From Phormidesmis priestleyi (GTDB lineage: Bacteria; Cyanobacteriota; Cyanobacteriia; Phormidesmidales; Phormidesmidaceae): DNA of 22,228 nt. The position numbers and the translations under genes were made by a program. Location: assembly GCA_003242115.1 (NCBI GenBank), contig QBMP01000022.1, positions 3,998 to 26,225 of the forward strand, given 5' to 3'. The notes beneath the pieces are model-generated. The model did no database searches, had not been told where the DNA came from, and saw only the letters and a program-made list of their open reading frames with translations. Position 1 is the first letter of the stretch. Every line of letters starts with the position of its first letter. Positions 5,269 through 20,908 of this stretch are shown one piece after another.

Positions 5269-5985
5269 ATGACATCTCAAAACGCACTGCCTACCTCGCG
5301 CCGAGGTCTGATGAAATGGGGACTTTGGGGCTTAGGCGGCTTGATGGTCGCGACCCTTCCCAAAGCGGCGATCGCGCAATCCAACATGACCCTTACCTTC
5401 AATGCCAACGATGAAGGCATTCTCAACTTTGCCCTCCTGCTCGAAGAACTAGAAGCTGCTTTCTATGCAGCGGCGGTTAGCTCCGGTAAAATTTCAGACA
5501 GCAAAGAACTGGAATACGTGAAAGAACTAGGCGCTCAAGAAGCAGCCCATGTTACTTTTTTACGCAGCGTATTAGGCGACATGGTGCTATTTGAAACCGC
5601 CGATCTGAGCTTTAATTCAGCGGGGTTGAATGCGATTTTGAAAGATCGCAACACCATCCTTAACACCGCTGTCACCCTCGAAGATGTCGGCGTCCATGCC
5701 TACAACGGTGCAGGCCCTAGCCTAACTAACCCTACCTACCTCCTCGCCGCAGGCTCTATCGTCTCGGTCGAAGCCCGTCATGCCGGTGGTGTCAGAGCCC
5801 TGCTCGGCAGACCCACCACCGAACCTGACAGCGATCGCTTAATCAGTGACGCTGACCTGGTAGCTAGCCTCAATCCATTTAAAGGCAGAGCTTACGACGA
5901 GCTGTATAGTCCCAAACAGGTAGTGGCCATCGTTGGCTCACTCGGCATTCTCAATAACCCTATTAACGGCTCACTCGTCGCCTAA
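5269..5985 (+). CDS. Tat-exported ferritin-like domain protein
   Basis: A 238-residue protein with a twin-arginine signal (SRRGLMKWGLWGLGGL, cleavage near AIA-Q at about residue 37) followed by a four-helix ferritin-like fold of the PF13668 type. Candidate di-metal ligands: E of LLLEELEAAFY, the first ExxH in QEAAH, E of TLEDVGVHAY and the second ExxH in VEARH. All four helices and both ExxH motifs are present, so the metal centre looks intact. Tat export suggests folding with its metal before export. Proteins of this family are exported and poorly characterised; iron, manganese or peroxide handling has been suggested. It is 11 bases upstream of a second family member with AAGGAGG overlapping its own stop codon, so the pair is co-translated. 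Confidence 0.85.
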   Translation: MTSQNALPTSRRGLMKWGLWGLGGLMVATLPKAAIAQSNMTLTFNANDEGILNFALLLEELEAAFYAAAVSSGKISDSKELEYVKELGAQEAAHVTFLRSVLGDMVLFETADLSFNSAGLNAILKDRNTILNTAVTLEDVGVHAYNGAGPSLTNPTYLLAAGSIVSVEARHAGGVRALLGRPTTEPDSDRLISDADLVASLNPFKGRAYDELYSPKQVVAIVGSLGILNNPINGSLVA

Positions 5986-5996
5986 GGAGGACACCC

Positions 5997-6938
5997 ATGA
6001 AAACACGTTTTAATTCAGCGCTTCAGACCCTTCAATTTAACACTCAATCTATGGTGAAATCTGCGGTGCGATCGCTTTTACTCTCCCTAAAGAGCACTCT
6101 AATTGCTCTTTTAGAAAAAATTAATCAGCAGTCTTTGATCAAGGGCATGGCATTCGTGCTGCCGCTAGCCATGCTGTTTCTATGTGTTGGCCCTACCCCC
6201 GCAGCGCAGGCCCAAGAAGCTGTTTTGACCCCTCGCCAAGTCGTTGAATATGCCCTGACGCTCGAAAAACTAGAAGCTGACTTTTATCGTCGAGCGGTTG
6301 CCGCCGCCCAAAACGGCGGCCTCGCAGGCGTTCCTCAAGCAGCCAAAGACGTTATCGTCTCCTATGGTCAAGATGAAGCCCAGCACGTCACGGATCTTTC
6401 GGCTGTTTTGCCTTCTTTAGGCGGCAATCCAAACGCTATCAGAATTCCAACAAATCCTAACTATGCCGCTATTCTAGGCCGCGATCCGTTTGCTAACCCA
6501 GCAGACTTCCTGCTAGTCGGGCAGTACGTCGAAGATTTGGGCGTTGCCGCTTACAAAGGGCAGGTGCAAAACCTGCTGGCAGCAGGTGAAGCGGGTAAAA
6601 CGGTGCTAGCCGCTGCGCTCGCAATTCACAGCGTCGAAGCTCGTCATGCAGCAGGTGTGAGGTTCTTGCGCAATTCCCTACTCGGCGCTGATGTCAATCC
6701 TTGGATTTCGGCTAACGCTAGCAGCAGCGAAGTTATTTACAACGAAAACCGCATGGGTTCGCCTATCCCCTTTAGCACTGCCGCTTTTGATGGCTATGCA
6801 ACCCGATCGGAAGTACTGGCGCTAGTCGGCCCAGTTTTGACGGAGGCTCCCATGACTAACCGACCGACGCCGATGCCTACACCTCAGCCTTCAACCACTC
6901 AGCCCCCAACCAACAACTCACCCCGCGCCCTGTGGTAA
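5997..6938 (+). CDS. Sec-exported ferritin-like domain protein with Pro/Thr-rich tail
   Basis: A 313-residue relative of the preceding protein. Its ATG has a strong AAGGAGG eight bases upstream that overlaps the previous stop. The first 75 residues form an unusually long N-terminal region: basic and amphipathic at first, then a Sec-type hydrophobic core (MAFVLPLAMLFLCVG) ending AQA-Q. The ferritin-like domain (about 76-265) keeps E in TLEKLEADFY, the first ExxH in DEAQH, E in VEDLGVAAY and the second ExxH in VEARH. The last 30 residues are PTPMPTPQPSTTQPP-like, a flexible wall or surface linker. Unlike its partner it has no twin arginine, so the two would reach the periplasm by different routes. 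A terminator follows. Confidence 0.85.
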   Translation: MKTRFNSALQTLQFNTQSMVKSAVRSLLLSLKSTLIALLEKINQQSLIKGMAFVLPLAMLFLCVGPTPAAQAQEAVLTPRQVVEYALTLEKLEADFYRRAVAAAQNGGLAGVPQAAKDVIVSYGQDEAQHVTDLSAVLPSLGGNPNAIRIPTNPNYAAILGRDPFANPADFLLVGQYVEDLGVAAYKGQVQNLLAAGEAGKTVLAAALAIHSVEARHAAGVRFLRNSLLGADVNPWISANASSSEVIYNENRMGSPIPFSTAAFDGYATRSEVLALVGPVLTEAPMTNRPTPMPTPQPSTTQPPTNNSPRALW

Positions 6939-7315: not shown

Positions 7316-8764
7316 ATGCTACAAACAGCTCATAATGCTTTCGTCAGTTTTGCATACATACCCCACGGACATTGCTATTTATGGAAACCGGGATTAGTCT
7401 GGCTACATCTCCTCTCTGACGGATTCATTGCTCTGGCCTATTTTTCAATTCCAATAGCACTGGTCTATTTTGTTCAGCGACGGCAGGATTTACCCTATCC
7501 GTGGTTGTTTTTGCTTTTTGGTGCCTTTATTGTTGCCTGTGGTTTCACTCATATCTTTGCCGTTTGGACGCTATGGCATCCTAACTATTGGACGTCAGGT
7601 ACGGTAAAGGCTCTGACTGCCGTGATTTCACTCATAACTTCGGCAATGATGATTCCTGTTATTCCCGAAGCCTTGGCATTGCCTGGGCGGGGAGAACTCG
7701 AAAAAGCGAAAGCAGACCTAGAACAGCGTGTGCTTGAACGTACTCAAGCTTTACAGCTGAGTGAAGAGCGTCTCCAGATGGCACTTGCGGGTTCTGGAGA
7801 TGGTCTATGGGATTGGAATATTACAACGAAAGAAGTGTATTTCAGCCCTCGATGGCAGCAGATGCTCGGCTACGAGGTAAACGAGCTTCCTGGTCATATC
7901 GGCACATGGGAGAGCCTGATTCACCCAGACGATAAACCTAGCCATATGGAGGCGCTAGCGCTTCATATGCAGGATAGTCGAGTTCCCTATGCCTTTGATT
8001 ATCGGATAAAAACAAAGTTAGGCGGATGGAAATGGATCGGTAACTATGGCCAAGTAGTAACCCGCAATGAGAATGGGGATGCCGTCAGAATGTCGGGAAC
8101 TCACAAAGATATTAGCGATCGCAAACAGCGTGAACAAGAACTTGCTAAATCCCTGGCCGAAAAAAACGTAATGCTGCAAGAAATTCACCATCGGGTCAAA
8201 AACAACTTGCAGATTATTTGCAGCTTGCTCAATTTGCAGACCCAATCTAGCGATCCGCAGATTGTAGAGATCATGAAAGAAAGCCAGAACCGAGTGAAGT
8301 CAATGGCCTTAGTGCATGAGAATCTATACAAATCTGAGAATTTATCGAAGATAAATCTTGAAAGCTACGTCCAAGATTTGTCTAGAAATCTATTGAGATC
8401 CTATCACTCTAAAACGAGTTCAACCAAAATTAGCGTTGCCGTTTTAAATATCTCTCTCGACATTGATACCGCAGTGCCCTGCGGACTCATTATCAATGAG
8501 TTAGTTTCCAATGCTTTAAAGTATGCATTCCCTGAACAACGACAAGGAGAAGTCAAAATCAGTATCTTTAAAGCAGCTAACCAAGACGTGATCCTAAATA
8601 TCGCCGACGACGGGATTGGATTGTCCCCTGAGATCAATCTTAAACAGATAAATACCATGGGTCTACGCATGGTCACAGCCTTAATTCGGCAGATTTCGGG
8701 TACCCTAAGCGTTAATCGAGAAGCTGGGAGTTCATTTACGATTAGTTTCCCCGAGCAGGTTTAG
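7316..8764 (+). CDS. Ethylene-receptor-type sensor histidine kinase (ETR domain-PAS-HisKA_2-HATPase)
   Basis: A 482-residue membrane kinase. Residues about 28-122 form three transmembrane helices that align without gaps to the ethylene-binding domain of plant ETR1: SDGFIALAYFSIPIALVYF carries Asp35 and Tyr42, and GAFIVACGFTH carries Cys75 and His79, with the same spacing as ETR1 Asp25, Tyr32, Cys65 and His69 that hold Cu(I) and ethylene. A short coiled coil (126-150), a PAS_3-type domain (about 152-275: GDGLWDWN, WESLIHPDD, GTHKDISDRK), a HisKA_2 phosphoacceptor segment (EIHHRVKNNLQ, His291/292) and a HATPase domain (INELVSNALKYAFP, DDGIGL) follow. Synechocystis Slr1212 (UirS/SynEtr1) shares the sensor but has a bilin-binding GAF domain that is absent here. 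It is co-directional with, and 47 bases from, a cyclic di-GMP response regulator, its likely partner. Confidence 0.92.
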   Translation: MLQTAHNAFVSFAYIPHGHCYLWKPGLVWLHLLSDGFIALAYFSIPIALVYFVQRRQDLPYPWLFLLFGAFIVACGFTHIFAVWTLWHPNYWTSGTVKALTAVISLITSAMMIPVIPEALALPGRGELEKAKADLEQRVLERTQALQLSEERLQMALAGSGDGLWDWNITTKEVYFSPRWQQMLGYEVNELPGHIGTWESLIHPDDKPSHMEALALHMQDSRVPYAFDYRIKTKLGGWKWIGNYGQVVTRNENGDAVRMSGTHKDISDRKQREQELAKSLAEKNVMLQEIHHRVKNNLQIICSLLNLQTQSSDPQIVEIMKESQNRVKSMALVHENLYKSENLSKINLESYVQDLSRNLLRSYHSKTSSTKISVAVLNISLDIDTAVPCGLIINELVSNALKYAFPEQRQGEVKISIFKAANQDVILNIADDGIGLSPEINLKQINTMGLRMVTALIRQISGTLSVNREAGSSFTISFPEQV

Positions 8765-8811
8765 TAGCACAAGTTTGTGTATTACCTGTATCAATACTTA
8801 GATCTAAAACA

Positions 8812-10905
8812 ATGGAATCTTCTTTAGCTCCGACCAGTATCTTGATTGTTGAAGATGAAGGACTTATTGCGCTCGACATAGAAACTCATTTGTTGAATTT
8901 AGGCTACCAAATTGCGGGCATAGCCGAAACGGGTCGATTAGCTATCCAAAGAGCCCTTGCATCGCCGCCGCCTGATTTAATCTTGATGGATATTCGGCTG
9001 AAAGGAGATATGGATGGGATTGAAGCGGCCTCTGAAATCTCTGCACAAGTCGATATTCCTATTGTTTTTCTGACGGCTTTCTCAGATGAAAATACGCTCA
9101 ATAAGGCTAAATTAGTATCGCCCTTTGCCTATATCCGTAAACCCTTTGATACAGCTGACTTACACATAAGTATTGAAATTGCTCTCCAAAAGCATTGTTC
9201 TGAAAAAATCATAAAGCAGCAAAAAAATTGGCTTAATACCGTTTTAGAAAGTATTGGAGATGCTGTCGTAACGACTGATAATGATGGCAAGATTACTTTC
9301 GTGAATCGGGTTGCTGAGTCTATTACTCAGTGGATCAAATCTGAGACTCTCGGCAGACCGATTAATGATGTTGTTTCCTTAGTTGACCGCGATAAAAACT
9401 CCATTGAAAATCCCATCTTTCAAGCTTTAAGAACGGGGCAGGGGGAGCCTCTGCCAGAGGGCACTTTGCTAATCACAAAAAATCAGCAAGAAGTTCCTGT
9501 TGAAGACAGTGCAGTATTGATATTAGATGACACACAGCACGCTCATGGAGCCGTGATTGTTTTTCGAGATGTTAGTGAACGTGTAGCGGCAAAGCAACAG
9601 CTATTTAATCATGCCTATTACGACGCACTCACGAATCTTCCTAATCGCTCATTGTTTGTTGATCGACTTCAACATTTAGTTGATTTGAACAGGCGATACC
9701 CCAACTGCCAATTTGCCGTACTATTTGTTGACTTAGACCGATTTAAAATTGTTAACGATAGTCTAGGACACCCGATTGGCGATCAGTTACTGATTGCTGC
9801 TGCAAAACGGTTACAGAAATGCCTACGACCTACGGATACGGTTTCTCGCTTTGGTGGGGACGAGTTTGCTATTTTACTAGAGCAGTGTCCAGATTTTGAG
9901 TTTGTTTACAAGTTAGCTGATCGGATTAATCGTGAACTCAGCGTTCCTTATCATTTGAGTAACTACAATCTCTTCAGCTCTGCCAGTATTGGCATTGTTC
10001 AAGGGCAATCTCAGTATGAAACAGCCGAGGATATGGTGCGAGATGCAGATATTGCAATGTATCAGGCCAAAGCGAATGGCAAAGGTCGCTATGCTATTTT
10101 TGATGATGCGATGCATACACAAGTTAAAAGGCGACTCACGTTAGAAAATGATTTGCGACAAGCGGTTTCTGACAATGCATTGACGATTCACTATCAGCCG
10201 ATTGTTTCATTGGCTGATAGCGCGATTGTAGGCTTTGAAGCGCTAGCGCGTTGGGAGCATCCTGAACAAGGGCTGATTTCTCCTGATATATTCATCCCGA
10301 TTGCTGAAGAAACCGGACTCATTGTTCAGCTTGATCAATGGGTTTTGCGTCAAGCCTGCCAGCAAATCAAAGTCTGGCAAGATCGGTTCTCTGCCAAAGC
10401 AAAATTGGGCGTTAGCGTTAATTTATCGAGCTACCATTTTTCACAGATGGATGTGGTTGAGCAGGTTAAGCAAGCGCTTGCAGATGCGGCATTGTCGGCA
10501 GCTAGTCTGAGGTTAGAACTTACTGAAAGCACTCTCATTGAGAATACTGAGTCAGTGGCTCAAATACTGTTAGAGTTGAAAAATCTAGGTATCGAAATCT
10601 ATATTGATGATTTTGGGACAGGCTATTCGTCTTTAAGCTATCTGCATAAATATCCAATTAGCACCCTTAAAATTGACCGTTCCTTTATTCATCATATTGA
10701 CTCTAATACAGACCAATTTGAGATTGTTCGCACAATTATTATTTTAGCCAAAGCCTTAAATATGACTGCAATAGCAGAAGGCGTAGAAACAGAGGAAGAA
10801 ATAGAGGCTATTCGCGGCTTAGGGTGCGAGTATGTACAGGGATACTATTTTCACCGCCCCCTAACATGCAATCAAGTTACAACTCTGCTGGAAAATTGTA
10901 GCTGA
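8812..10905 (+). CDS. Response regulator REC-PAS-GGDEF-EAL (cyclic di-GMP turnover)
   Basis: A 697-residue protein. REC domain 8-125 with phosphoacceptor Asp60 (LMDIRL), Thr88 and Lys110 (RKPF). PAS about 135-255 (NTVLESIGDAVVTTDNDGKI ... GAVIVFRDVSERVAAKQ). GGDEF about 262-430: GGDEF at 348-352 intact, with an inhibitory-site RxxD (RPTD, 339-342) at the proper five-residue distance. EAL about 445-697: EALARWEH (476-483), ELTES, DDFGTGYSSL (599-608), KIDRSFI (Lys620) and AEGVET, all intact. Both diguanylate cyclase and phosphodiesterase activity are therefore possible, and which one dominates cannot be read from sequence. Phosphorylation by the upstream ethylene-receptor-type kinase is the natural inference. 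ATG 8812 has no good Shine-Dalgarno, which suggests coupling to the kinase. Confidence 0.93.
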   Translation: MESSLAPTSILIVEDEGLIALDIETHLLNLGYQIAGIAETGRLAIQRALASPPPDLILMDIRLKGDMDGIEAASEISAQVDIPIVFLTAFSDENTLNKAKLVSPFAYIRKPFDTADLHISIEIALQKHCSEKIIKQQKNWLNTVLESIGDAVVTTDNDGKITFVNRVAESITQWIKSETLGRPINDVVSLVDRDKNSIENPIFQALRTGQGEPLPEGTLLITKNQQEVPVEDSAVLILDDTQHAHGAVIVFRDVSERVAAKQQLFNHAYYDALTNLPNRSLFVDRLQHLVDLNRRYPNCQFAVLFVDLDRFKIVNDSLGHPIGDQLLIAAAKRLQKCLRPTDTVSRFGGDEFAILLEQCPDFEFVYKLADRINRELSVPYHLSNYNLFSSASIGIVQGQSQYETAEDMVRDADIAMYQAKANGKGRYAIFDDAMHTQVKRRLTLENDLRQAVSDNALTIHYQPIVSLADSAIVGFEALARWEHPEQGLISPDIFIPIAEETGLIVQLDQWVLRQACQQIKVWQDRFSAKAKLGVSVNLSSYHFSQMDVVEQVKQALADAALSAASLRLELTESTLIENTESVAQILLELKNLGIEIYIDDFGTGYSSLSYLHKYPISTLKIDRSFIHHIDSNTDQFEIVRTIIILAKALNMTAIAEGVETEEEIEAIRGLGCEYVQGYYFHRPLTCNQVTTLLENCS

Positions 10906-11129: not shown

Positions 11130-12611
11130 TCAAGCCTGTTGTATTTCCAAAATCCCCATCATGCCGCGATCTTCATGATCGAGCACATGGCAGTGATAGA
11201 CAGTTTTACCCACGTAGTCACGAAAGGCCATCCGAATACGAACGGTTTCTCTAGGACTCACTGGTACCACGTCTTTCCAGGTGGGGTAGGGTGTAGGCCG
11301 ACCACCCTGACTGATGATTTGGAACTTGTTGGTATGAACATGGAAGGGATGAACCATTGAGCCCGTGTTCGTCACCTCCCAGTCTTCAACGGTGTTCAGC
11401 ATTACTTGAGTGTCAACGCGAGCAGGGTCAAAGGCTTTGCCGTTAATCATAAACACCATGCCGTTGCCCATCATGCCGCCACCACCCATCATTCCACCGC
11501 CGCCCATGCCATGATTCAGCGTAAACTGTCGAGTTGTCTGCGGTTCTGGCAGTGGCTCGACTGCAATTAACTGGCTGGGCAAAGGCATCTCGTCGGTTTC
11601 TCCCTCATAGGTGAGTGTCGCGACCGTTTCAGCACTGTCTGAACTTTGGTTTCTGCTCATCATTCCACCCATCATTCCGCCTTGCGCAGGGTTAAAAGGT
11701 TGATTAATCAGGCGATAACTATTGGGCGCTTGATTTCCCTGTACCAGTACCTCAACCCGCTCTCCAGGAGCTAGAACCACATCACTCAGTTCGGTAGGAG
11801 AAGAAATAGCTCCCCCATCTGTCGCAATCAGATGCATAGGATGATCTTCTAGTGAGAGACGAAAGAATCGAGAAGGAGAAGCGTTGAGTAGTCGCAATCG
11901 TAACAGTCCGCCCCTTTGAATAGTCATTCTTGGGTTGATTTGTCCGCTAGCTGTCAGTAAACCGCCAGCGCGACCTGTCATTGCGGTCATATGGCCGGTC
12001 TCGGAGATGTTACCGTTACTGTCTAAGGCGAAATCTTTGAGGACTAAGAACTCTTCTTTAGCGGCTTTAATTTCAGGAATTTCATCTAGCTCGCCGCGAA
12101 CAATAAAAAGGCCAGCGAGACCAGCGAAAAGTTGTTCGGCTACTAGCCCGTGCTTGTGGGGATGATACCAAAAGGTGCCCGCTGGATGTGTATCAGGAAT
12201 TTGATATTCGTAGGTATGGCTCTCACCAGGAGAAATCTCTAAAAATACATTGTCACCTGAGCCAGTGGGTGGAATATGCAGACCGTGGTAGTGGACGTTG
12301 GTGGGCTGATTGAGCTGATTAGTGAAGCGGATTTGTACTCTATCGCCAGCGTTGGCTTCTAGCAGTGGGCCAGGGACTTTGCCGTTGTAGGCAAGTAGGT
12401 TAGCAGTGCGACTTCCCAACTGTACAGACTGAGCCTTAGCTTCTAAATCCAAGCTGAGCAAACCGTTTTTGCTTTTATAAGTCTGGAACTGAATCGGTTC
12501 AGAAACGGGCGCAGAAGAGAGTGGCTGTGACCTGGAGCACTGAGATAGCAGCATAGCCGTCGTAGTACCTGCGCTCAGCCGCAAAAAGTCTCTCCGTTTT
12601 ATTGATCTCAT
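11130..12611 (-). CDS. Multicopper oxidase, Tat-exported, Met-rich (CueO/CopA-like)
   Basis: A 493-residue periplasmic oxidase, probably oxidising Cu(I) to the less toxic Cu(II). Twin-arginine signal KRRDFLRLSAGTTTAMLL at the N-terminus; LSQC at 22-25 is a poor lipobox. Copper ligands: HYHG (107-110), WYHPHKH (149-154), HPFHVH (421-426) and HCHVLDHEDRGM (473-484). Thus the type 1 site is His421, Cys474, His479 and axial Met484, and the trinuclear cluster ligands are complete. Two Met-rich loops, GGMMGGMMS and GMGGGGMMGGGGMMGNGM, resemble the copper-binding insert of CueO-type cuprous oxidases. Its ATG overlaps the stop of an upstream Met-rich small gene in an ATGA junction. The divergent neighbours are a copper-type ATPase and an RND system, which supports a copper-resistance role over laccase activity. 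Confidence 0.93.
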   Translation of the reverse strand: MRSIKRRDFLRLSAGTTTAMLLSQCSRSQPLSSAPVSEPIQFQTYKSKNGLLSLDLEAKAQSVQLGSRTANLLAYNGKVPGPLLEANAGDRVQIRFTNQLNQPTNVHYHGLHIPPTGSGDNVFLEISPGESHTYEYQIPDTHPAGTFWYHPHKHGLVAEQLFAGLAGLFIVRGELDEIPEIKAAKEEFLVLKDFALDSNGNISETGHMTAMTGRAGGLLTASGQINPRMTIQRGGLLRLRLLNASPSRFFRLSLEDHPMHLIATDGGAISSPTELSDVVLAPGERVEVLVQGNQAPNSYRLINQPFNPAQGGMMGGMMSRNQSSDSAETVATLTYEGETDEMPLPSQLIAVEPLPEPQTTRQFTLNHGMGGGGMMGGGGMMGNGMVFMINGKAFDPARVDTQVMLNTVEDWEVTNTGSMVHPFHVHTNKFQIISQGGRPTPYPTWKDVVPVSPRETVRIRMAFRDYVGKTVYHCHVLDHEDRGMMGILEIQQA

Positions 12612-13060: not shown

Positions 13061-13227
13061 TAGTCTTATCTCAAAGGAGTGAAGTAGTTGTTCTCTCTTT
13101 TGAGTGTTGTGCGCACAGGTAAATTTCGTTAAGACTGATGTGTATACCTATAAAGAGTCTAAAGTCGAGTCTAAAGCATGTCATCAACAAGGCGAGCACG
13201 CTCTCACTAACGTCAGGAAGATCTTCC

Positions 13228-15365
13228 ATGAATCAATCCGACCGCCCCAAGCCCAAGAAAAACAGTCGCTCTTTGTTGGCTGACAACAATCATCAGGCGA
13301 TCTTGTCTAAGCAGCATGACGGACACAACCACGAGGGTCATAGTAGCGCTAAGGAGAGTGGCAGCGATCGCGGTATGCAGGGTGGCCACAATATGCACAG
13401 CGGCCACGGCAAACATGCAGGCCACACTCCGGGAATGTTCAAGCGACGATTTTTTGTCTCTCTCATCCTTACGCTGCCGATTCTCTATTTCTCTACTCAG
13501 CTTCAGAGCTGGCTAGGGTACCAAGCGATCGCGTTTCCCGGCTCAAACTGGATTAATCCTGTTCTTGGCATCATTCTCTACTGCTATGGCGGCTGGCCGT
13601 TTCTGAAAGGAGCTTGGCGCGAGTTCCATAGCCAAATTGCCATGATGACGCTGATTGCATTGGCAATCACGGTAGCTTTTATTTATAGTCTTGCGGTATC
13701 GCTAGGTCTTGACGGTAAACCGTTCTACTGGGAGCTAGCGACCCTGATCGACATTATGCTGCTAGGCCACTGGATTGAAATGGCCTCAGTAAAAGGTGCG
13801 AGTCAGGCGCTGGAGGAGCTTTCTACGCTGGTGCCGAATCAGGCGCATCGGATGAGCAATGATCAGGTCGAAGATGTTGCAGTGAGCGAAATTCAGATTG
13901 ACGATGTAATTCTGATTCGCCCTGGCGAGCAGATTCCAAATGACGGTGAGGTGATTGAAGGGAGCACCAGCGTCAATGAGTCATTTTTAACCGGAGAATC
14001 GAAGCCTGTTTCTAAACATGTTGGCGATGAAGTTGTGGCAGGCTCAGTTAATACTGAGGGTTCGGTTAAGGCTAAGGTAACGCGGGTGGGTGGCGATACG
14101 GCAATTAGTCAGATAATGCGGCTGGTGGATGAGGCACAGAATTCTCGCAGTCGCTTTCAGGCACTAGCCGATAAAACGGCTTACTGGTTGACTTTGATTG
14201 CGATCGCATCTGGTACGCTCACCTTTGTTGTCTGGCTCTCAATTGATACCTTAGTTTTTGCCATCAACCGGGCTGTCACCGTATTAGTTATTACCTGCCC
14301 CCATGCGCTAGGTCTGGCCATTCCACTGGTGATTGCCAACTCTACCAAGCTAGCCGCAGGCAACGGCATTTTGGTTCGCAATCGAGACTCGCTAGAACGT
14401 GCTAAAGATATCAGGATTATGGCGTTTGACAAAACAGGGACGCTGACTGAGGGTAAGTTTGGGGTGCAAGATGTGATCGCAGAGGGAATGGAAAGCGAGC
14501 AGGCATTAGCGATCGCGGCGGCACTAGAAACATCCTCAGAACATCCTCTAGCCCAGGCCATCGTCGAGACCGCCAACCAACGACAGCTCGATCTGCCTCA
14601 AATGCAAAACTTCCAAACCATCACAGGTCGGGGAGTAGAAGGTGAGGTAAATGGACAAACCTATCGTTTGGGTCGCCCGGAATGGATAAAGGAACAAAAA
14701 CTACAGCTACCTGACGAGCTAAAGAATGCGCTGGATCAGGCTGATAAACGCGGAGAAAGTGCCGTTGTGCTAATGACCGCCGCTCGCACTGTTGCCGTTA
14801 TCTCTATGGCCGACCAAGTGCGAGAGAGTGCCCGCAAAGCAGTTGACCGCTTGAAGGCAATGAACATTCAGACCGTAATGATTACGGACGATGCCGAAGC
14901 GGTTGCTCGCAGCGTTGCGGAAGATCTAGGCATTGATCGCTACTATGCTCGGGTTCTGCCAGAAGACAAGGTAAACCGCATTAAAGAACTTAAGCAGGAG
15001 AAGCGCCTACCGCTTTTGTTGGAGACGGTGTAAATGATGCTGCCGCGTTGCTAGAAGCCAATATGGGTATGGCCATTGGAGCCGGTACCAATGTGGCGAT
15101 TGAGTCCGCAGACTTAGTTCTGATAGAAGACGATCCGCTAGACGCCGTGAAGGCGCTAAACCTGGCGAAAAAAACCTACAGTAAGACAATTCAGAACCTG
15201 ATGTGGGCCACTGGCTACAACGTAATTGCGATTCCGCTTGCAGCGGGCGTACTGTCGCCTTGGGGCATTGTTCTTTCCCCAGCAGTAGGCGCAATCCTGA
15301 TGAGTCTTTCTACCATTATTGTGGCTATCAACGCCATATTGCTGCGCCGAGCAAAACTAGATTAG
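13228..15365 (+). pseudogene. copB: CPH-type (CopB, P1B-3) metal ATPase, frameshifted in the hinge motif
   Basis: A Cu/Ag-type P1B ATPase read in two frames. The first part runs from ATG 13228 (AGGAAG upstream) to TAA 15033; the second frame continues to TAG 15365. Numbered from 13228, residues 30-67 are a His-rich metal-binding tail (HDGHNHEGH, GGHNMHSGHGKHAGH) replacing the HMA domains of CopA. TGES is at 255-258, the membrane metal motif is TCPHALG with CPH at 357-359 (the P1B-3 signature) and DKTGT begins at Asp401. The hinge GDGVND is only found in the second frame (15021-15038), followed by [12 protein letters not shown] and the last two membrane helices. Loss of one base near 15012-15014 explains it; one extra G there would give [10 protein letters not shown]. 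The first product alone lacks the hinge and two helices and should be inactive. The rest looks well preserved, so the lesion is recent or a sequencing error. Confidence 0.85.
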
Positions 15366-17770: not shown

Positions 17771-20700
17771 ATGCTCAACTCAATTTTGAAATGGTCGATT
17801 GTTCAGCGCTGGCTGGTGGTGATCGGGGCGGTGCTGGTGACGGTGCTGGGCATTTACAACCTCACCCAAATGCCGCTAGATGTGTTTCCTGATTTTGCCC
17901 CGCCGCAGGTCGAAATTCAGACCGAGGCTCCTGGCTTAGCGCCCGAAGAAGTCGAATCGTTGATTACCCTGCCGATTGAAAGTGCGGTAAATGGCACCCC
18001 CGGCGTAGAAACGGTGCGGTCGTCTTCGGCGGTGAGTATATCGGTGGTGAAGGTTATTTTTGGCTGGGGCACTGATGTGTATCAGGCCAGACAGCTCGTA
18101 GCAGAACGTCTACAGCAAGTACAAGATAAGCTACCAGAGGGCGTCGGCACCCCGCAAATCGCGCCGGTTTCGTCCCCGATTGGCACGATTTTGATGTATG
18201 CCCTCACGCCGCAAACGACCTCTTTGATGGAAGTGCGGCGACTGGTTGATCGCGATGTCACCAACCGACTGCTGGCGGTGCCTGGGGTGTCTCAGGTGAT
18301 TGCCTACGGGGGCGATGTAAGGCAGTATCAGGTATTGGTTGATCCGGCCAAGCTGGTGGCCTTTAACGTTTCGCTGCAAGCGGTGACCGAAGCGGCGGCG
18401 GCGGCCAATGTCAATGCGGCTGGCGGCTTCCTGACCACGCCCGATCAGGAGATGATTATTCGCGGCGTAGGACGGCTCACGTCAATTGATGAGCTAGGAG
18501 AATCTGTGATTCCGGGTCGCGATGGCCCGCCCGTGTTGCTGCGCGATGTGGCCCAGGTGTCTGTGGGGGCAGCGCTGAAGCGGGGCGATGGCAGTTTTAA
18601 TGGCGATCGCGCCGTAATCATCGTGGTGAATAAGCAGCCGCTAAACGACACACCCACCGTTACGCAAGCTGTTGAGCAGGCAATGGCCGAGGTCAAAAGC
18701 GTTTTGCCTGAAGACGTGACGGTAACAGAAACGTTTCGACAGGAGAACTTCATTGAAGCTTCGATTGAAAATGTGCTGGGTTCCCTGCGAGATGGCATCA
18801 TCATTGTCTCGATCATTCTGTTGTTGTTTTTGATGAACTGGCGCACCGCCGTCATCACTCTCAGCGCGATTCCCCTGTCGATTTTGGTTGGCATGATGAT
18901 TTTGAACGCCTTTGGTCAGGGCATTAACACTATGACCTTGGGCGGTCTAGCCGTGGCGATTGGCTCGGTTGTAGATGATTCCATTGTTGACATGGAAAAT
19001 GCCTATCGAGGACTGCGGCAAAATCAGCTAGCGGGTACGCCAGAGCATCCGTTCAAAGTGGTGTACCGAACCTCTGTAGAAGTGCGAGTCAGCGTCCTTT
19101 TTTCGACGGTGATTATTGCGGTGATATTCGCGCCTATTTTTAGCTTAGTCGGCGTGGAAGGTCGAATTTTTGCCCCGATGGGCGTGGCTTATTTGGTGTC
19201 TATTTTTGCCTCTACCGCTGTGGCAATGACCCTATCGCCTGCCCTGTGCGCCATTCTGTTGGCCAACCGACCGCTTCCCAGCGATGAGACCTGGGTGAGC
19301 GCTTTTGTGCAACGGCTGTATCGCCCTATGCTCGGAGTGGTGATGCGGCGAGCCAAGGTCGTGCTGATGATTGCTGGGGCTTCATTAGTGGCCGCTCTAA
19401 TCATGTTTTCTAGTCTAGGGCGCGTGTTTTTGCCCGAGTTTCAAGAGCCTTCCCTGGTGAATGCCATGCTACTTTATCCAGGAGTTTCGCTAGAAGCTAC
19501 GAACCAGTCTGGGCTGGCTATGCAGTCGGCCTTAAAGGACGATCCGCGATTTGAGACAGTGCAGCTACGCGCCGGACGTGCGCCCGGAGATGCCGATGCA
19601 GGTGGCGTCAACTTAGGCCACTTAGATATAGAACTCAGCCCCATAGGATTAGCAGATCGAGAGGCGTCGATTGAGAAAATCCGCGAGGAATTTGCGCGGA
19701 TTCCAGGGATTGCGCCCAGTATTGGCGGGTTTATTTCGCACCGGATGGATGAGGTGCTTTCTGGGGTGAGAAGTGCGATCGCCATCAAAATTTTCGGCCC
19801 CGATCTAGACGAACTCCGCTCTATCGGTAGCGAAGTAGAAACCGCCATTCGAGAGATTGATGGCCTCGTCGATCTTCAGCTAGAGCCTCAAGTTCCCATT
19901 CGCCAAGTGCAAATTCAGTTTGATCGCGCTGCCGCCGCCCGCTATGGCCTCACCGTCGGCCAAATCTCCGAGATTGTTGAAACCGCGCTCAACGGTCGTG
20001 TGGTTTCTCAGGTGCTAGAGCAACAGCAGCTCTTTGATCTGCTAGTTTGGCTGGAAGACGGGGCCAGGAACAACTTAGAGACGATTCAAAATCTGCTGAT
20101 TGATACGCCAACCGGCCAAAGGATTCCCCTAGCCCAGGTCGCCCAGGTTGAGTATGGGACAGGCCCAAACACGATTAACCGTGAGAATGTTTCGCGCTTG
20201 ATTGTGGTGTCTGCAAACGTGGCCGGACGAGATTTAGGCTCTGTTGTAGACGACATTCAGGCTAAAGTAAGCGAGACGATTCCGCTGCCCTCTGGCTACT
20301 TTATTCAATATGGAGGACAGTTTGAATCAGAGCAGCGAGCCAGTCATAATCTCCTAGTTTTTGGAGGACTAGCCCTGGTACTCATTTCAGTGCTGATGTA
20401 CTTCGCCGTCAAATCATTAGCTGGCGTGGTGATGATTATGATCAACCTGCCACTTGCTCTGGTCGGCGGCATCTTTTCGATTGCGCTCGGCGGCGGTATT
20501 GTCTCGGTGGCCTCACTGGTCGGCTTCATTACCCTGTTTGGGGTAGCCACTCGCAACGGCCTGCTGCTAGTAGATAATTACAATACCAAGCTAGCAAAGG
20601 GAATGCCACTTCAGGAAGTGATTGTCGAAGGCTCAATGGAACGACTCGTGGCCATTTTGATGACGGCGCTGACGTCGGCCTTGGGCATGGTTCCCCTGGT

Positions 20701-20908
20701 GATTGGTAACGGGGCTGGAAAAGAGATTTTGCAACCTTTGGCAGTCGTGGTGCTAGGGGGCTTGGTGACATCCACAGCGCTTACCCTGCTGGTGTTACCG
20801 GCACTTTATGCGCTGTTTGGCAAATATCTAGTTGCCAAACCAGCAGCTACTTCTGTTCAAGGCGAGGTCTTATGGGATGTTTCGCCTGAGGAGGCTTCAG
20901 CGATTTGA
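17771..20908 (+). CDS. Heavy-metal RND efflux pump (CzcA/CusA family)
   Basis: A 1045-residue proton-driven inner-membrane pump of normal family length: TM1 (WLVVIGAVLVTVLGIYNL), VFPDFAPPQVEIQTEAPG, large periplasmic loop, six-helix block, second loop and second block. The proton relay segment VVDDSIVDMENAYRGL has acidic residues at 402, 403, 407 and 409. In the second periplasmic loop, HRMDEVLSGVR (from His657) aligns with CzcA RFNELIAGVR and CusA RIDMLATGIK; here Glu661 sits where CusA has a metal-binding Met (Met672, from memory). That leans toward the CzcA-like divalent type, although the neighbouring genes point to copper or silver. The substrate therefore remains open. Translation starts at ATG 17771; the gene overlaps nothing and is followed by the YtkA-like lipoprotein. 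Confidence 0.92.
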   Translation: MLNSILKWSIVQRWLVVIGAVLVTVLGIYNLTQMPLDVFPDFAPPQVEIQTEAPGLAPEEVESLITLPIESAVNGTPGVETVRSSSAVSISVVKVIFGWGTDVYQARQLVAERLQQVQDKLPEGVGTPQIAPVSSPIGTILMYALTPQTTSLMEVRRLVDRDVTNRLLAVPGVSQVIAYGGDVRQYQVLVDPAKLVAFNVSLQAVTEAAAAANVNAAGGFLTTPDQEMIIRGVGRLTSIDELGESVIPGRDGPPVLLRDVAQVSVGAALKRGDGSFNGDRAVIIVVNKQPLNDTPTVTQAVEQAMAEVKSVLPEDVTVTETFRQENFIEASIENVLGSLRDGIIIVSIILLLFLMNWRTAVITLSAIPLSILVGMMILNAFGQGINTMTLGGLAVAIGSVVDDSIVDMENAYRGLRQNQLAGTPEHPFKVVYRTSVEVRVSVLFSTVIIAVIFAPIFSLVGVEGRIFAPMGVAYLVSIFASTAVAMTLSPALCAILLANRPLPSDETWVSAFVQRLYRPMLGVVMRRAKVVLMIAGASLVAALIMFSSLGRVFLPEFQEPSLVNAMLLYPGVSLEATNQSGLAMQSALKDDPRFETVQLRAGRAPGDADAGGVNLGHLDIELSPIGLADREASIEKIREEFARIPGIAPSIGGFISHRMDEVLSGVRSAIAIKIFGPDLDELRSIGSEVETAIREIDGLVDLQLEPQVPIRQVQIQFDRAAAARYGLTVGQISEIVETALNGRVVSQVLEQQQLFDLLVWLEDGARNNLETIQNLLIDTPTGQRIPLAQVAQVEYGTGPNTINRENVSRLIVVSANVAGRDLGSVVDDIQAKVSETIPLPSGYFIQYGGQFESEQRASHNLLVFGGLALVLISVLMYFAVKSLAGVVMIMINLPLALVGGIFSIALGGGIVSVASLVGFITLFGVATRNGLLLVDNYNTKLAKGMPLQEVIVEGSMERLVAILMTALTSALGMVPLVIGNGAGKEILQPLAVVVLGGLVTSTALTLLVLPALYALFGKYLVAKPAATSVQGEVLWDVSPEEASAI

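Follow-up and report, generated by a model that had tools for sequence, protein, structure and literature searches.

In the 22,228-nucleotide stretch of Phormidesmis priestleyi DNA analysed here (the window, part of contig QBMP01000022.1, our C144), two genes lie on the same strand, 47 bases apart (Table 1). The first encodes a sensor kinase that begins with an ethylene-binding domain (EBD; Pfam ETR1_N) and continues with PAS_3, HisKA_2 and HATPase_c domains. The second encodes a response regulator with receiver (REC), PAS, GGDEF and EAL domains, the last two being those of cyclic di-GMP (c-di-GMP) synthesis and breakdown. A sequence-only reading had described the two as an ethylene-receptor-type kinase paired with a c-di-GMP regulator. 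We confirmed this observation, and the pair is conserved.

The ETR1_N match of the kinase scored 141.9 bits against a curated cut-off of 27, covered profile positions 2–97 of 97 and included three hydrophobic stretches, as in the three-helix domain. It is not due to chance, since none of 14 control genomes gave a match. The domain was found in 90 of 386 genomes sampled across the phylum and in 49 of the 63 genomes of the family; within the source genome (4.8 Mb, 92.8% complete) the window kinase was the sole match in a profile search. The domain was aligned to the N-terminus of ETR1, whose binding residues are D25, Y32, I35, P36, I62, C65 and H69. All seven have counterparts in the window (D35, Y42, I45, P46, I72, C75 and H79), and K98 aligns with K91 of ETR1. 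The claim of a gapless alignment at D35, Y42, C75 and H79 holds up to His79; beyond it, a three-residue gap precedes helix 3 (the offset passes from 10 to 7). Seven is the number of residues needed for ethylene binding (PMC6682694), and Asp25, Cys65 and His69 are named as the ETR1 copper site (PMC12643061). We also surveyed 160 regions with 166 distinct EBD genes, hand-picked among the matches listed; pairs of the window's family are over-sampled in it, it takes in a minority of the family's EBD matches, and EBD proteins of ~290 and ~650 amino acids (aa) were left out. D35, C75 and H79 occurred together in 151/166 of these domains, and all seven residues in 139/166.

Downstream of the EBD, both the phospho-acceptor histidine and the ATPase boxes of a HisKA_2 kinase are present, and H292 was invariant across five aligned kinases. 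A search of solved structures with the whole kinase returned eight matches, none reaching residues before 144. The regulator was scored for the characteristic motifs of its domains; D60, T88, K110, RxxD, GGDEF, EAL, N, E, DDFGTG, K and AEGVE were all present. The RxxD motif of the inhibitory site (I-site) sits five residues ahead of GGDEF, and the statement that GGDEF, RxxD and EAL are intact was thus borne out. Receiver, I-site, GGDEF and EAL motifs were found in 7/7 regulators paired with an EBD kinase. For the last glutamine of the EAL domain, the search pattern missed the window and its relative L083, whose sequence there is VQGY. The GGDEF and EAL domains may both work, judging from these motifs.

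A survey of how often the two genes co-occur had been proposed, and it found the adjacent pair in seven loci: the window and six further cyanobacterial loci belonging to several genera. The kinase of L083 is 88% identical to that of the window. Between these two loci, synonymous divergence (dS) was 0.419 for the kinase and 0.429 for the regulator, and the ratio of nonsynonymous to synonymous divergence (dN/dS) was 0.138 and 0.140, so that relative to this nearest relative both genes are under the same purifying selection. Against L084, for which dS is near saturation, dN/dS was 0.099 and 0.084, respectively. Each EBD of these seven loci retains the full set of binding residues (L298 and L327 were checked on fragments). 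Of 7871 protein matches, the top 120 include 19 clusters of 419–484 aa that are 61% or more identical and carry identical core domains.

Table 1. Coordinates of the kinase–regulator pair and of the related loci discussed in the text (ORF, open reading frame)
Feature	Position	Strand	Basis
Sensor kinase EBD-PAS_3-HisKA_2-HATPase_c, 482 aa	7316..8764	+	ORF, Pfam
PHGHC motif, residues 16-20, N-terminal to helix 1	7361..7375	+	EBD survey
Ethylene-binding domain (ETR1_N), residues 27-122	7394..7681	+	Pfam E 7.9e-42
Predicted copper-site codons D35; C75; H79	7418-7420; 7538-7540; 7550-7552	+	residue alignment
Kinase PAS_3 domain, residues 174-263	7835..8104	+	Pfam E 3.3e-23
HisKA_2 domain; phospho-acceptor H292 at 8189-8191	8180..8404	+	Pfam E 6.1e-28
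HATPase_c domain, residues 391-481	8486..8758	+	Pfam E 5.2e-11
Response regulator REC-PAS-GGDEF-EAL, 697 aa	8812..10905	+	ORF, Pfam
Receiver domain; D60 (8989-8991), T88, K110	8839..9174	+	Pfam Response_reg E 1.5e-17, motifs
Regulator PAS domain	9238..9573	+	Pfam E 3.1e-13
GGDEF domain; RxxD residues 339-342; GGDEF residues 348-352 (9853-9867)	9613..10086	+	Pfam E 8.2e-46
EAL domain; EAL residues 476-478 (10237-10245); DDFGTG, AEGVE	10147..10860	+	Pfam E 5.5e-79
Pair loci: window; L083 (P. priestleyi Ana); L084 (Halomicronema metagenome-assembled genome); L212, L238 (same family); L298 (Cyanosarcina radialis); L327 (Lyngbya confervoides)			
Hybrid-kinase loci: L154, L159, L167, L169, L179, L193, L195, L215			Pfam on five: GAF, HisKA, REC
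Minimal EBD-GGDEF gene, L371	2304-3230		
Minimal EBD-GGDEF gene, L372	1945-2820	-	
Minimal EBD-GGDEF gene, L373	1575-2507	-	

That the two genes are merely neighbours, the kinase signalling to another regulator, is very improbable given their adjacency in seven loci across several genera and their matching substitution levels relative to L083, even if many EBD kinases of the survey adjoin regulators of other kinds. A scan for promoters and terminators gave no excess over shuffles (8 versus 8.8 and 1 versus 3.2, respectively); co-transcription is therefore argued from the gene spacing. The regulator's own relatives speak further for partnership. Within the family, 17 regulator matches were obtained at E 1e-150, five after EBD kinases, 11 after HisKA_2 kinases and one (L281) cut. 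Among the 12 homologues other than these five, an adjoining HisKA_2 kinase was present in 11, and the twelfth, L281, ends at the contig end; kinase class and regulator thus travel together. In these 11 partner kinases no EBD was found, their inputs being PAS and in some cases REC domains (Pfam on 7/11; the L274 frame is cut at its start). Since the regulator's other homologues follow such kinases, the input appears exchangeable, and the unit looks like a kinase core plus regulator for which the EBD is one input among others. A first regulator tree had hinted that the EBD pairing arose twice, independently. We do not claim this, because the L281 kinase is cut by the contig end and, L281 aside, one input change is enough on the same tree (by eye). 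When a single EBD clade was tested for, p was 0.118 for all rows and 0.042 once L298 and L327 were omitted; both runs treated L281 as non-EBD and excluded the outgroup row L191. The trees fit one change of input, in either direction.

In another reading, the EBD holds copper yet serves another ligand or chiefly anchors the kinase, with the PAS domains as the true sensors (of redox state, oxygen or a small molecule). The non-EBD partners of the regulator family, with their PAS and occasional REC inputs, are in line with this, as is the variable number of PAS domains between EBD and HisKA_2 at the pair loci: none in L327, one in the window, L083 and L084, and two in L212, L238 and L298. The absence of any PAS found at this position in L327 can also be held against it, and all seven loci keep the seven binding residues. 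We regard this explanation as unlikely.

The neighbourhood of the window pair suggested a third reading. On one side lie two Ferritin_2 proteins in tandem (5269–6938), and a similar tandem occurs in two other genomes, G052 and G055. On the other side lies a copper cluster with genes for a CueO-like oxidase, a copper-type P-type ATPase, CusB-like and CusA-like proteins (the latter, 17771–20908, named by eye) and a CopM/DUF305 protein. The ATPase gene (13138–15365) looks frame-broken, with 631 aa followed by 105 aa in another frame; in G054 an unbroken homologue of 756 aa lies near the multicopper oxidase (MCO). The EBD could then report Cu(I) itself, as copper had been suggested to be a signal, and the pair would assist the flanking genes or a switch of lifestyle set off by copper. 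Cu(I) loading alone does rigidify ETR1 (PMC12643061), and in L156, an EBD locus of another type, a CopM-like gene (11602–12249) is found 2.5 kb downstream, scoring 83.1 of 90 bits, just below the cut-off. However, with the window's copper genes as queries, no copper genes were found at the other six pair loci (an ATPase in L327 aside) over 5.9–6.1 kb upstream (89 bases for L083) and 2.4–7.2 kb downstream. The L327 ATPase is of the Cation_ATPase_N/C type by Pfam, the ATPase pieces near EBD loci L155 and L162 score best to non-heavy-metal classes, and an RND piece in L223 scores best to another class. Conversely, no EBD gene occurred in the stretches fetched around the best same-genus MCO homologues (G053, G054, G055 and G057; lesser MCO copies and G056 were left out) or around the Ferritin_2 pairs of G052 and G055. 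The GC (guanine plus cytosine) content of the pair, 0.42–0.45 versus 0.50–0.54 for its neighbours, is consistent with a later arrival at the locus. Copper-sensing systems of the CusRS/CopRS type have a DNA-binding regulator whose place next to copper genes is conserved; here, Pfam found no DNA-binding domain in the regulator, and copper neighbours were found in the window only, of seven pair loci. We consider a copper sensor improbable and reject copper as the main explanation, because the window's copper neighbourhood was not found in the stretches scanned at the other pair loci.

Published systems resemble the pair in part. The Synechocystis kinase SynEtr1/UirS (Slr1212) has an EBD that binds ethylene, together with a light-sensing domain and a transcription factor as partner (PMC5812497). 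The sequence-only reading had stated that the window pair lacks the GAF domain of this counterpart; indeed, Pfam at E 0.001 detected no GAF domain in the pair, kinase included, and no DNA-binding domain, regulator included. In Geitlerinema PCC 7105, the gene group of the ethylene receptor GeiEtr2 includes a diguanylate-cyclase gene (PMC6682694). GeiEtr2 differs from the window kinase by its length of 1025 aa and by a domain set that has GAF as well as PAS domains and a receiver of its own. AzoEtr1 of Azospirillum brasilense, an EBD-PAS-histidine kinase with a downstream regulator gene, binds ethylene and has the same residue numbers D35, C75, H79 and K98; its regulator, unlike ours, is given as a 135-aa receiver without recognised output domain (PMC11819568). 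In that organism ethylene lowered c-di-GMP, and the path from receptor to responses, c-di-GMP among them, is described as unknown in the same paper. CdgK-CdgS (All2875-All2874) of Anabaena PCC 7120 are an adjacent, cotranscribed kinase and c-di-GMP regulator acting via phosphorylation, which raised the cyclase activity of CdgS (PMC9927289). All2875 is a CHASE-domain receptor with moderate cytokinin binding (PMC7700396); it differs by its input, by its hybrid architecture (HisKA plus REC and Hpt domains), and by its partner CdgS, described as a diguanylate cyclase. In Xanthomonas, the plant-hormone receptor kinase PcrK controls the c-di-GMP-degrading regulator PcrR: hormone binding lowers autokinase activity and activates the phosphodiesterase, PcrR without phosphate degrading c-di-GMP (PMC7072313, PMC6637768). 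There the hormone is cytokinin, the input is a CHASE domain and PcrR matches the HD-GYP protein HGdpX2 rather than a GGDEF-EAL protein. The interpretation given earlier is plausible, but narrower in its novelty: GeiEtr2, Azospirillum and CdgK-CdgS precede it as links of this kind. A report of this exact pair, or of EBD-GGDEF fusions, was not found in the open-licence literature searched.

Such fusions were encountered in the EBD survey. Seven of its genes join the EBD to GGDEF with or without EAL (L089, L142, L146, L158, L168, L202 and L217, confirmed by Pfam), and L348, outside these seven, is a further EBD-GGDEF fusion by Pfam. They occur with or without PAS/GAF domains; in L089:2499-4277 the EBD is joined directly to GGDEF-EAL. 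All 7/7 survey fusions retain the full set of binding residues. Smaller proteins also occur: the EBD occurs in an open frame of 278–339 aa in 19 genomes of the family (one cut-off kinase left out), and the three proteins read (L371, L372 and L373; Pfam on L371) all consist of an EBD followed directly by GGDEF. Among 92 protein matches at E 1e-30, 87 clusters of 253–363 aa (P0121-P0206, P0212) have this minimal form. C75 and H79 are present in 87/87, D35 in 82/87 and K98 in 36/87; GGDEF or GGEEF is found in 85/87 and the I-site in 79/87. Where databases name them, they are called GGDEF domain-containing, diguanylate cyclase-like or hypothetical. From their sequences, they are possible one-protein diguanylate cyclases gated by ethylene or copper. 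An EBD fused to GGDEF is a more direct layout than two genes. Separately, the protein of 641 aa encoded by L374:2276-4201 joins GGDEF-EAL to an EBD that is weak and has N where D35 would stand (by eye); in 14/63 family genomes, open frames of 641–673 aa give weak EBD matches (one, L374, was opened).

Among unfused survey genes, 19 have a GGDEF gene as direct neighbour. Besides the pair, a second frequent layout consists of a hybrid EBD kinase with receiver adjoining a REC-GGDEF-EAL regulator of ~600 aa; this layout, for instance at L154, L159 and L167, looks similar to the GeiEtr2 neighbourhood.

The survey also drew attention to a PHGxC motif ahead of helix 1, PHGHC in the window. Its H17 and C20 are both present in 157/166 survey EBDs, nearly equalling the known copper ligands in conservation, and in 82/87 minimal proteins, the remaining five being gapped there. 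The motif is absent from the ETR1 sequence used for the comparison. For cyanobacterial receptors, one N-terminal cysteine has been noted as a possible disulfide former (PMC6682694). Taken together, these data tentatively suggest that a signal from ethylene, or another gas bound to Cu(I), to c-di-GMP may be a standing cyanobacterial route with three or more designs: an EBD kinase paired with a REC-(PAS-)GGDEF-EAL regulator, EBD-PAS/GAF-GGDEF(-EAL) fusions, and EBD-GGDEF proteins of ~290 aa as ligand-gated cyclases. In that picture PHGxC might bind a second metal or act as a handle for loading copper into these bacterial receptors.

For the window pair, our preferred reading, to which we give a probability of roughly 0.57, is a two-component system turning a membrane signal, most likely ethylene on Cu(I), into a change of c-di-GMP. 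The steps below, from the ligand and the loading with copper through phosphotransfer and enzyme activity to the sign of the output, are predictions. The dimeric kinase would autophosphorylate at H292. Cu(I), bound by C75 and H79 and positioned by D35 and K98, would hold ethylene, thereby lowering autophosphorylation. Phosphate would pass from H292 to D60 of the regulator, whose REC and PAS domains would set the balance between synthesis by GGDEF and breakdown by EAL. With ethylene, the regulator would lose phosphate and c-di-GMP would fall. This fall is predicted because three precedents agree on it, namely CdgS, PcrR and Azospirillum; inhibition by ethylene has also been proposed for Synechocystis Etr1 (PMC6508509). 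As to what would read the output, the single ComFB match of the genome is a candidate c-di-GMP receptor downstream of the pair, members of the ComFB family being known to bind c-di-GMP (PMC12313861). GGDEF was matched 11 times in the genome, twice within one frame. On the contig of the pair, another GGDEF gene lies just beyond the window (G000:C144:1697-2227, minus strand).

Several points weigh against this reading. With GGDEF and EAL both intact, the sign of the output cannot be read from the sequence. More biofilm goes more often with high than with low c-di-GMP. Ethylene increases biofilm formation in Synechocystis (PMC11819568). PilZ, the commonest c-di-GMP receptor, gave no match in the genome. 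The pair has a patchy distribution, the kinase being matched at full length in 3/63 family genomes, its own included. Finally, a same-strand GGDEF gene lies within 4 kb of 20/146 EBD kinases and of 9/143 other HATPase genes, the latter being a rough control set that contains 149 of the 258 HATPase matches of three genomes. The enrichment is only about twofold, relatives are not independent, and at least four of the 20 come from the over-sampling of the window's family. The idea that GGDEF genes are strongly enriched next to EBD kinases is thus rejected.

If the preferred reading is true, ethylene would act in bacteria by a route whose first step needs no transcription factor. This would also account for the way in which a gas produced by plants or microbes could alter the surface behaviour of cyanobacteria. 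The pair, and even more the minimal EBD-GGDEF proteins, would be simple test objects for the question raised in Azospirillum of how the receptor reaches c-di-GMP.

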